DNA from: Actinomycetes bacterium
GTDB taxonomy: Bacteria > Actinomycetota > Actinomycetes > S36-B12
Reading direction: 5' to 3'
NCBI GenBank assembly: GCA_024641635.1
Contig: JAHECS010000002.1
Location: forward strand, 1-64,000
DNA length: 64,000 nt
Shown here: positions 1,026-51,847 of the stretch, in pieces
How the letters are laid out: every line of letters starts with the position of its first letter
How positions within the stretch are numbered: position 1 is the stretch's first letter
Notes under the pieces: generated by a model
Told to the model about the DNA's origin: nothing
Seen by the model: only the letters and a program-made list of their open reading frames with translations
Database searches by the model: none
Made by a program: the position numbers and the translations under genes

Positions 1026-4394
<3,369 letters not shown>

Positions 4395-33471: not shown

Positions 33472-33535
33472 CGTTGAGTGCGGGGTTGTTGGGCACTTCA
33501 GGGTCCCTGAACGCCCAACAACCCCGCACTCAACG
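33472..33535. repeat. Palindromic repeat, copy A
   Basis: A 23-bp left arm beginning CGTTGAGTGCGGGGTTGTTG (33472-33494) pairs perfectly with the right arm (33513-33535). The 18-nt centre contains its own 15-bp palindrome, TTCAGGGTCCCTGAA. The right arm supplies the TGA stop codon of the DUF559 nuclease gene on the minus strand (33530-33532). The same arms recur at 34534-34597 and 50902-50963 with different loops. Confidence 0.95.
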
Positions 33536-34438
33536 AGCTGGACGCGGGGTCCAGCCTCGGGACCGGAGGGCGTCGCGGACCTGTTGGGCCAGCACCCACG
33601 GGCGCCGATGATCATCGGCCGTCGCCGTGATGACGATCCATCCGTGCTCCTGGAGCAGGTTGCGTCGTTGCGCGTCACGTCGACGCTGACCCTCCTCGAG
33701 ATGGACGAGGCCGTCGTACTCGACCGCGACGCGGAACTCCGGCCATGCCATGTCCACTCGCGCCAGCCAGCCGCCCGACTCGATCACGTCGTGGTTGCAC
33801 ACGGGGCGCGGCACACCTTCAGCCATCAGCTGCACCCGCGTCACGGACTCACCCGGCGAGGCCGCCGCGGGATCGAGGAGCGGGAACGCCCGCCGCGCCA
33901 CCGCGACGCCGCGACGCCGGTAGGCCCAGCGCAGCAGGGCGCGCAGCTCGGCGCTGGCCATCAACGAGCGGGCCAGCCCGAAATCGCCCATGGCAACCAC
34001 GTTTGCCACGGGCATCTCGGCAGCGCAGTCCAACCAGGTACGAGCGGGCGTGGTGACGCGCCGACCGTCGACCTCGGTCACGTGCTCCTCCGGGAGCCGC
34101 AGCCGCCGCCCGCGAACCCCCACGCGCTGCGGCTCCGCGGTACCGGCCGAGACTGCCAAGGACACCGGACGCTTGTCGACGTCCTGCATCCACGGCGGGA
34201 GCGGGAGCCCCCACAGCCGCGCGGCATCAACGTCGGTGACGACAGCACGATCGACGGCGCCGCTCAGCCCTGCATCGATGCGGTCGTGGTCACCCGGCTC
34301 GGCGCTGGTGTCGATCCTGACCCCGCGCGAGGGCGCTCGGAATCGCTTGGCGCGCAGCTCGTCGTACGTGAGGCCCGCGCCTCCGTCCCGCGTGACGCGA
34401 ACGATGCGGTCCCCGGTCGATTCTCCATCCACGGGCAC
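33530..34438 (-). CDS. DUF559 (Vsr-like) endonuclease-domain protein
   Basis: The 302-residue protein has an N-terminal DNA-binding-type region seen in AbiEi-like/DUF559 proteins (GLTYDELRAKRFRAPSRGVR) and a C-terminal PD-(D/E)XK nuclease-like domain. Candidate catalytic residues are E197 (SPGES), D229 (RVDMAW), E240 and D242 (VAVEYDG). DUF559 proteins are very common in actinobacteria, but their role is unknown; homing, repair or defence have been considered. The GTG at 34438 has only a weak Shine-Dalgarno, so the start is uncertain. The gene is bracketed by palindrome copies A and B, and copy A provides its stop codon. Confidence 0.8.
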   Translation of the reverse strand: MPVDGESTGDRIVRVTRDGGAGLTYDELRAKRFRAPSRGVRIDTSAEPGDHDRIDAGLSGAVDRAVVTDVDAARLWGLPLPPWMQDVDKRPVSLAVSAGTAEPQRVGVRGRRLRLPEEHVTEVDGRRVTTPARTWLDCAAEMPVANVVAMGDFGLARSLMASAELRALLRWAYRRRGVAVARRAFPLLDPAAASPGESVTRVQLMAEGVPRPVCNHDVIESGGWLARVDMAWPEFRVAVEYDGLVHLEEGQRRRDAQRRNLLQEHGWIVITATADDHRRPWVLAQQVRDALRSRGWTPRPAR

Positions 34439-34533: not shown

Positions 34534-34597
34534 CGTTGAGTGCGGAGTTGTTGGGCGTTCAGGGGTGCCAGAACGCCCAACAACCCCGCACTCAACG
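34534..34597. repeat. Palindromic repeat, copy B
   Basis: Arms of 27 bp (34534-34560 and 34571-34597) are complementary except for one A/C mismatch and enclose a 10-nt loop, AGGGGTGCCA. The outer 22 bp are the same sequence as in copy A. It lies 95 bp upstream of the DUF559 nuclease start and 11 bp downstream of the LLM-like gene stop. Confidence 0.95.
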
Positions 34598-48404: not shown

Positions 48405-50800
<2,396 letters not shown>

Positions 50801-50803
50801 GCC

Positions 50804-51847
50804 TCAGGCGCGTCCGGGCGAGCGGCGGCGCCGCCACTCGATGAGCCCGATCAGCGCGACCGCTGCTGCGATGAGACCCCCCGCCACAACCACCCCCCAT
50901 TGTTGAGTGCGGGGTTGTTGGGCGTTTTCGCCATCCGAATCCCCCAACAACCCCGCACTCAACGAAGGGGGAGGGGGTTGGCTTGGGGAAGCATCGGTTG
51001 CTCCCCCGGTCGAAGCAGCGGGGGTCACATCCACCCGGAGCAGCCGGTCGTCCTTCTCACCGGCCACCAGCAGGGCGCTGCCATCGGGAGTCCACGTCAT
51101 CGCCTCCCCCTGCACCTGCAGAGGCAGGTAGACACGCTGCGGATCGGTCCCGGGGGGCTTCCCCGTGCGCACCTCGGCGTCGACGTAGTCCCGGATCGCG
51201 AACCGGCTCCCATCCGGGCTGACGGACGCATCGGTCACGAACCCCCCGGCGTCGCCGACCGGCTCGGCAACGTTGATCCTCGTGCGCGACAGCGGCTCCG
51301 GCAGGGCATAGATACGTCCGGCCGCCGACTGCTTCGTCACCACCCACACCCGGCTGGACTCCGGGTCGGCCAGCAGCGCCTCCGCGTTGTGCGGTCGATC
51401 GGGGTAGGTGAACCGGTACGTCCGCGCCTTGACGCTGCGGTCGCGCAGGACCTTCGGCTCGCGAACCCGGTGCAGCCGCACCTCGGGCCAGGAGTCGACG
51501 TTGTCGCCGATGTCGGCGACCCACAGCACCGGACGGCCCTTCGCGTCACGCCCCGAGCCGATCGCCTCGATGTCGCGCGCCTCGATCCCGCGAATGGTCA
51601 GGGTCGCGAGGGTCTGGCAGGTGGCCGCATCGACAGCGAACACCAGCGGACCACCCGACGAGTCGTTGTGCAGGTAGATCACGCCGTCATGCCGCTGGGA
51701 GTACGTCATCCCACTGATCTCCGTGAACCGCGGATCGGCGAAGCGACAGACCTCGGTCACGCCATCGATGGCCGACGCGGTCGGCAACGGCACGGCCAAC
51801 AGGCCCACGAGGACCGCTGCGGAGCCGAGCGCGAAGGCGCGCCGCAT
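50804..51847 (-). CDS. Secreted beta-propeller protein with C-terminal membrane anchor
   Basis: The 347-residue protein has a signal peptide (cleavage likely after TASA, residue 26), a ~250-residue domain of repeated beta-blade segments (DIEAIGSGRDAKGRPVLWVADIGDN-type motifs, NAEALLADPESSRVWVVTK), a Pro/Ser linker and a C-terminal membrane helix (VVVAGGLIAAAVALIGLIEW) followed by WRRRRSPGRA. It is probably an extracytoplasmic propeller anchored to the membrane. The linker contains the whole of palindrome copy C, translated as SLSAGLLGDSDGENAQQPRT. The function of the propeller is unknown. Confidence 0.8.
   Translation of the reverse strand: MRRAFALGSAAVLVGLLAVPLPTASAIDGVTEVCRFADPRFTEISGMTYSQRHDGVIYLHNDSSGGPLVFAVDAATCQTLATLTIRGIEARDIEAIGSGRDAKGRPVLWVADIGDNVDSWPEVRLHRVREPKVLRDRSVKARTYRFTYPDRPHNAEALLADPESSRVWVVTKQSAAGRIYALPEPLSRTRINVAEPVGDAGGFVTDASVSPDGSRFAIRDYVDAEVRTGKPPGTDPQRVYLPLQVQGEAMTWTPDGSALLVAGEKDDRLLRVDVTPAASTGGATDASPSQPPPPSLSAGLLGDSDGENAQQPRTQQWGVVVAGGLIAAAVALIGLIEWRRRRSPGRA
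50902..50963. repeat. Palindromic repeat, copy C, inside a coding sequence
   Basis: The 21-bp arms (50902-50922 and 50943-50963) are identical in sequence to the core arms of copies A and B, around a 20-nt loop. Unlike A and B it lies inside an open reading frame on the minus strand. It is read without a stop between the propeller domain and the membrane anchor of the protein encoded at 50804-51847. Confidence 0.95.

Follow-up and report, generated by a model that had tools for sequence, protein, structure and literature searches.

For REP repeats a single class of dedicated enzyme is known, the RAYT, and for some REP families none is known (PMC3733652). The classic case of palindromic repeats carried in frame within proteins is that of the Rickettsia palindromic elements, or RPEs (PMC10969869). 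The EDxHD (Vsr-like) homing endonucleases, of which I-Bth0305I is an example, are self-propagating nuclease genes. The locus that is compared with these systems here lies in a window of 64,000 nucleotides from the genome of a freshwater actinobacterium, and the features needed for the comparison are the following.

33473..33534: copy A palindrome, 62 bp, at the 3' end of the nuclease gene, to which its GTTGAGTG box gives the TGA stop codon
33530..34438, minus strand: DUF559/Vsr-like (EDxHD-type) nuclease gene, 302 aa, with an AbiEi-like N-terminal part
34535..34596: copy B palindrome, 62 bp, about 100 bp upstream of the nuclease start
49577..50800, plus strand: MFS-type transporter gene, convergent with the host gene of copy C, identified from sequence and not by family search
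50804..51847, minus strand: host gene of copy C, 347 aa, with a signal-peptide-like N terminus, a beta-propeller, a disordered linker and a C-terminal membrane helix
50902..50963, translated on the minus strand: copy C palindrome, 62 bp, with 21-bp arms and a 20-nt loop
50899..50966: copy C with its adjoining trinucleotides, ATT...GAA here, TTC/GAA-type being usual in the copies of the source genome

Copy C, which lies exactly where the original prediction placed it (50902-50963), reads GTTGAGTGCGGGGTTGTTGGG-N20-CCCAACAACCCCGCACTCAAC, both of its 21-bp arms pair perfectly and, as the original prediction held, it has the same arms as copies A and B, with the spacing identical as well. It folds at -54 kcal/mol, where shuffled sequences average about -21 to -23, and both strands fold far better than their shuffles (z about -9 to -11). 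The palindrome is wholly within one uninterrupted minus-strand open reading frame, 50804-51847, to which it contributes no stop, and the peptide of this region is ...SLSAGLLGDSDGENAQQPRTQ..., downstream of which come the helix and then ...EWRRRRSPGRA. The stops of the transporter gene and the host gene are 3 bp apart, with copy C lying 101 bp past the transporter stop. The part of the protein encoded by the palindrome is residues 295-316; in the AlphaFold model of the host protein beta strands extend up to residue 273 and a helix spans 318-342, with confidence very low at residues 279-292 and 297-318, the linker, which is predicted to be disordered. Against the tails of three sister-species orthologues (L034, L035, L057) the C-terminal helix region aligns better than 1000 of 1000 shuffles, and because it is homologous to these tails the frame downstream of the palindrome is real. 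The helix is intact as had been claimed, and the possibility that the host protein is really two overlapping genes finds no support. It is confirmed that copy C belongs to a dispersed palindromic repeat and is read in frame as part of a flexible linker, between the propeller and the C-terminal helix, and the linker peptide is probably produced. Neither the propeller protein nor the nuclease has a match in an NCBIfam search, and a search for Rfam RNA families gave zero matches in the window. The precedent of the RPEs that had been suggested for this copy is apt, as is that of intragenic REPs (PMC10969869, PMC3733652); palindromic repeats within genes are less unusual than the original prediction held, REPs of this kind being on record from several species and phyla (PMC3733652).

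Within the source genome the palindrome is one of a dispersed family. The pattern GTTGAGTG-N35..65-CACTCAAC has 27 matches in the 3.06-Mb genome and the reversed pattern, used as a control, has 0, which excludes a chance origin for copies that share the same architecture. Among the copies listed or read, all are 62 bp with identical spacing, and an alignment of 26 copies has 35 invariant columns, with outer arms that are nearly invariant and a loop that is variable in sequence and constant in length. According to crude codon-usage gene calls, 15 of the 27 copies are in a convergent context, 9 in a tandem one and 1 in a divergent one, with 1 near a contig end and 1, copy C, inside a gene; a stop codon is found at most 20 bp from 21 of the 27. 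The invariant box, GTTGAGTG/CACTCAAC, has no GTAG or CGTC tag. Two of the three frames of GTTGAGTG are open and the third gives TGA, and some genes adjoining copies terminate at this TGA. The 3' flank of the palindromes is G/A-rich, with no T-run after the hairpin, and no target-site duplication was defined for them. The element is more than the intergenic repeat of the original description, as copies A and B bracket a homing-endonuclease-like gene in an arrangement that recurs class-wide. An extension of copy C to arms of 59 bp was rejected, as there is no covariation past the ends across copies and the extension reflects C-rich/G-rich flanks; an attC-like integron site (GTTRRRY-like ends) was set aside by inspection, the order of boxes being inverted relative to attC, and so was a DNA uptake signal, the arms being seen solely as paired palindromes in the stretches read.

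The GTTGAGTG palindromes are carried by 16 of the 99 genomes searched, nearly always at 61 or 62 bp, and it is apparent that their inner arms are species-specific. The relatives of the source organism include MAGs labelled Candidatus Nanopelagicales. In a set of 76 distinct elements drawn from several species, the inner stem pairs 9-21 are Watson-Crick in 84-100% of cases even where both sides vary, and past the palindrome ends pairing equals expectation. This is a hairpin of fixed size under compensatory evolution, and the family is widespread and apparently undescribed. Gene ends in the same genus also carry a second, GCTCGCTGCGCTCACTCCTCGCTAGCGGGCTC-like repeat (L113 3973-4240; L116 about 3930-3970), which in genome G001 is tandemly duplicated next to a palindrome. 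A row of imperfect ~80-bp palindromes (GCGGGCTATACC...CTGACCCGCC) lies downstream of the propeller orthologue of G060 (L058 2523-3203).

Copies A and B are about 1 kb apart, with the nuclease gene 33530-34438 between them, and the pairing of palindrome and nuclease is found again in G012, G005, G013 and G030. Its frequency was counted at 20 close nuclease homologues (L137-L156) collected by protein similarity alone, a set that leaves out six loci obtained because of, or with sight of, palindromes. Palindromes lie upstream of 15 of the 20, downstream of 11 and on both sides of 10, under strict size and position limits that miss the downstream palindromes of L144 and L148; for the propeller genes used as controls the figures are 2/28 upstream, 1/28 downstream and 0/28 on both sides. 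Upstream, the flanking palindromes lie some 90-170 bp ahead of the nuclease start; downstream, they lie at its stop codon. Several homologues from species without GTTGAGTG palindromes have, in these positions, palindromes of ~61-72 bp with quite different arms. In relatives the palindromes at the nuclease, of ~60-70 bp, have lineage-specific arms, and these arms recur dispersed through the genome concerned (G060, G033, G012, G018 and others), whilst none of the nuclease-flanking types was found by a composite query in three control genomes. The two nuclease genes of G012 are each accompanied by a separate palindrome family.

Across the class a nuclease homologue is present in 119 of 247 genomes. 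At 26 further homologue loci, scored by looser criteria and without a matched control, palindromes are on both sides of 12 and on one side of 9; a minority of nuclease homologues have a palindrome on neither side by the criteria of the scan. All 13 genomes of family f23 carry GTTGATCATGG palindromes, from 1 to 52 of them and mostly 60-61 bp (control hits 0), and in one of these, G283, two such palindromes bracket the nuclease. In G018 and G029 (L152, L153) the palindromes flanking the nuclease are longer and compound, built from repeated GTTGCTGACTTGTGGCAAC units. An identical palindrome is present at the nuclease locus of G005 and of G013 (L111, L114), the other G005 palindromes differing in their arms, and this sharing may reflect transfer or misbinning. 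No paper linking dispersed palindromes to DUF559 or EDxHD nucleases was found in searches of an open-access library, and with that scope the novelty of the link is provisional.

The nuclease itself matches DUF559 at or just above the cut-off, its N-terminal part matches AbiEi models and its profile matches the homing endonuclease I-Bth0305I (E 2.8e-5). I-Bth0305I is also the closest solved fold to the structural model (pLDDT 90), with a Foldseek probability of 1.00, a target TM of 0.66-0.71 and an E of only 0.012, and by these matches the protein has a Vsr-like catalytic domain fold. Residues conserved in the alignment of homologues include E197, D229, E240 and G243. The neighbours of the gene in the window are an IclR regulator and an unassigned gene, with no partner toxin or methylase noticed adjoining it. 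A search for the Y1 (RAYT) transposase, PF01797, gave 0 matches in the 97%-complete genome, the control being positive in E. coli and others.

Sister species do not always share their palindromes. G001 and G009 are about 94% identical around the orthologous sites compared; at two loci the palindrome is present in one and absent in the other, and at a third G001 has a palindrome-nuclease-palindrome unit where G009 has a half-arm only. The sites differ in length, the differences are unpolarised and one is accompanied by a neighbouring duplication. Two further copies, of the same family or close variants of it, are in frame in conserved proteins of G030, from a related genus, one in an Lhr-like helicase and one in an AtuA-like protein. 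The helicase copy separates motif I from the RVLYISPLKAL motif. The orthologues of G090, G012 and G000 are free of palindromes and have loops equal in length to one another, so that the G030 copy adds 14 aa net. At the same site G019 and G084 carry palindromes with other arms, which add 16 aa. In the linker of the AtuA-like protein palindromes are present in G030 and G090 and there is none in G019. Net additions smaller than the element suggest that some target sequence was replaced. In genus g7 the AtuA-like protein is a single fused chain, and in the genus of the window it is split into two overlapping ORFs with an ATGA junction (L173-L182); its palindromes occupy the fusion linker.

The nearest propeller orthologues of the host protein of copy C are about 64-68% identical to it, with 68% the maximum, and a search of genome contigs found no close relative. 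Some orthologues (L036-L039) are without the tail altogether and others have a tail and no palindrome; the membrane tail varies within one genus, being present in L034, L035, L040, L041 and L057 and absent from L036-L039. Measured from RLLRV to the basic end, the palindrome-free tail of G012 (L035) is equal in length to that of the host protein, at 71 vs 70 aa, and those of other relatives can be as short as 63 aa or less. A clean gap in place of the block was not seen in orthologues of this identity, the G012 tail being free of the palindrome yet of the same length. An insertion that adds length and a replacement of linker DNA thus both fit copy C, of which insertion is, by analogy, the likeliest history, one that for copy C itself we infer.

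The best reading of the locus is that of a selfish, REP/RPE-like palindrome family which either is moved by an EDxHD-type nuclease or parasitises it. Copy C is quite likely a solo member of a set of REP-like 61/62-bp palindromes that are paired with, and probably spread by, the EDxHD/DUF559 nuclease they flank. In such a scheme the nuclease would recognise or cut the palindrome, or a target near the 3' ends of genes, and repair would copy the palindrome, or the palindrome-nuclease-palindrome, into the break. Arms would be homogenised within a genome and would diverge between lineages with compensatory changes. Most of the copies that survive would be those just past stop codons between convergent genes, with the few that land in coding sequence, copy C included, surviving as additions of ~14-22 residues in tolerant linkers. 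The nuclease would then be the cause of palindrome movement, of which flanking by itself is no proof. In a wider form, which we think on balance probable, the DUF559/EDxHD nucleases found Actinomycetes-wide and their lineage-specific palindromes of ~61 bp would make up a self-propagating equivalent of RAYT-REPIN built on a homing-endonuclease fold, dispersing palindromes to gene ends and occasionally adding peptides to proteins, that of the propeller protein in the window among them.

The placing of the copies, with 15/27 convergent and 21/27 no more than 20 bp from a stop codon, could also be that of bidirectional terminators or 3'-end mRNA stabilisers maintained by the host, for which a strong hairpin with its stem kept by compensatory changes would be well suited; copy C would serve the MFS transcript, would be passed over by ribosomes translating the propeller mRNA and would be immobile. 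This is unlikely, as the hairpin has no T-run, the arms are lineage-specific and nuclease genes are flanked at both ends, and as presence or absence varies between sister species and copies occur within coding sequence; a terminator role is in any case compatible with mobility and could be a by-product of it, known REPs being placed likewise (PMC3733652). The AbiEi-like N terminus, and the genome-by-genome correspondence between nuclease and arm sequence, would suit sites that serve a cellular nuclease of AbiEi-like/REase defence or regulation for recognition, as operators or for protection, and that are kept for binding and are not selfish. Copies in protein linkers and differences in presence would be unexpected of operators, however, and with no partner toxin or methylase noticed beside the window nuclease we regard this as a distinctly poor prospect.

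The behaviour of the palindromes is REP-like in their intergenic 3' ends, supply of stop codons and intragenic copies (PMC3733652), yet that they are ordinary REP/REPIN elements moved by a RAYT (Y1) transposase is extremely improbable when the 97%-complete genome has no Y1_Tnp match (control positive), no GTAG/CGTC tag is present and the gene flanked is a DUF559 nuclease. It is possible to suppose that copy C was never inserted, and that other copies served, through gene conversion or template switching, to turn a linker of the same length into a palindrome. The G012 linker, equal in length and without a palindrome, would allow this, as would the arm turnover that genus g7 shows from species to species at the Lhr site, but the Lhr copies add a net 14-16 aa over empty orthologues and the G001/G009 sites are unequal in length, so that such a conversion is very improbable. 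If the reading of a selfish palindrome family mobilised by, or parasitic on, the nuclease is true, a second and unrelated enzyme is partnered with lineage-specific palindromes, and the life-style of REPs has evolved more than once. A large nuclease family at present labelled 'unknown function' would also gain a testable role, and one way in which short selfish DNA can add segments to proteins in actinobacteria would become apparent.

Set beside the described systems, the palindromes share with MITEs that they are small, palindromic and non-autonomous-looking with an occasional in-frame fusion, and differ in that no DDE transposase with matching terminal repeats was seen here and no target-site duplication is shown. 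Like RPEs they include in-frame palindromic repeats that add a short peptide to unrelated proteins, whereas RPEs are ~150 bp, alphaproteobacterial and have no nuclease partner described (PMC10969869), and here most copies are extragenic; the RPE trait of an in-frame palindrome with orthologues that lack it is seen for the Lhr copy of G030, copy C being in frame with orthologues at most 68% identical. With the EDxHD homing endonucleases the nuclease shares the fold of the catalytic domain and profile similarity, self-copying by cutting being only predicted for the window nuclease; classical members are intronic or free-standing, and flanking palindromes dispersed through the genome were not found for them in the literature searched. 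As in REP/REPIN-RAYT systems, the palindromes are short and lineage-specific, lie for the most part at the 3' ends of genes in convergent or tandem contexts, flank the gene of a DNA-cutting enzyme, donate stop codons and are sometimes intragenic (PMC3733652). Unlike those systems, there is here a DUF559/EDxHD nuclease with no Y1 HUH transposase and no GTAG/CGTC tag, and a single actinobacterial palindrome of a fixed 61/62 bp. The larger finding is thus a partnership of nuclease and palindrome that behaves like REP-RAYT with a different enzyme, in which the nuclease would probably mobilise the palindromes.
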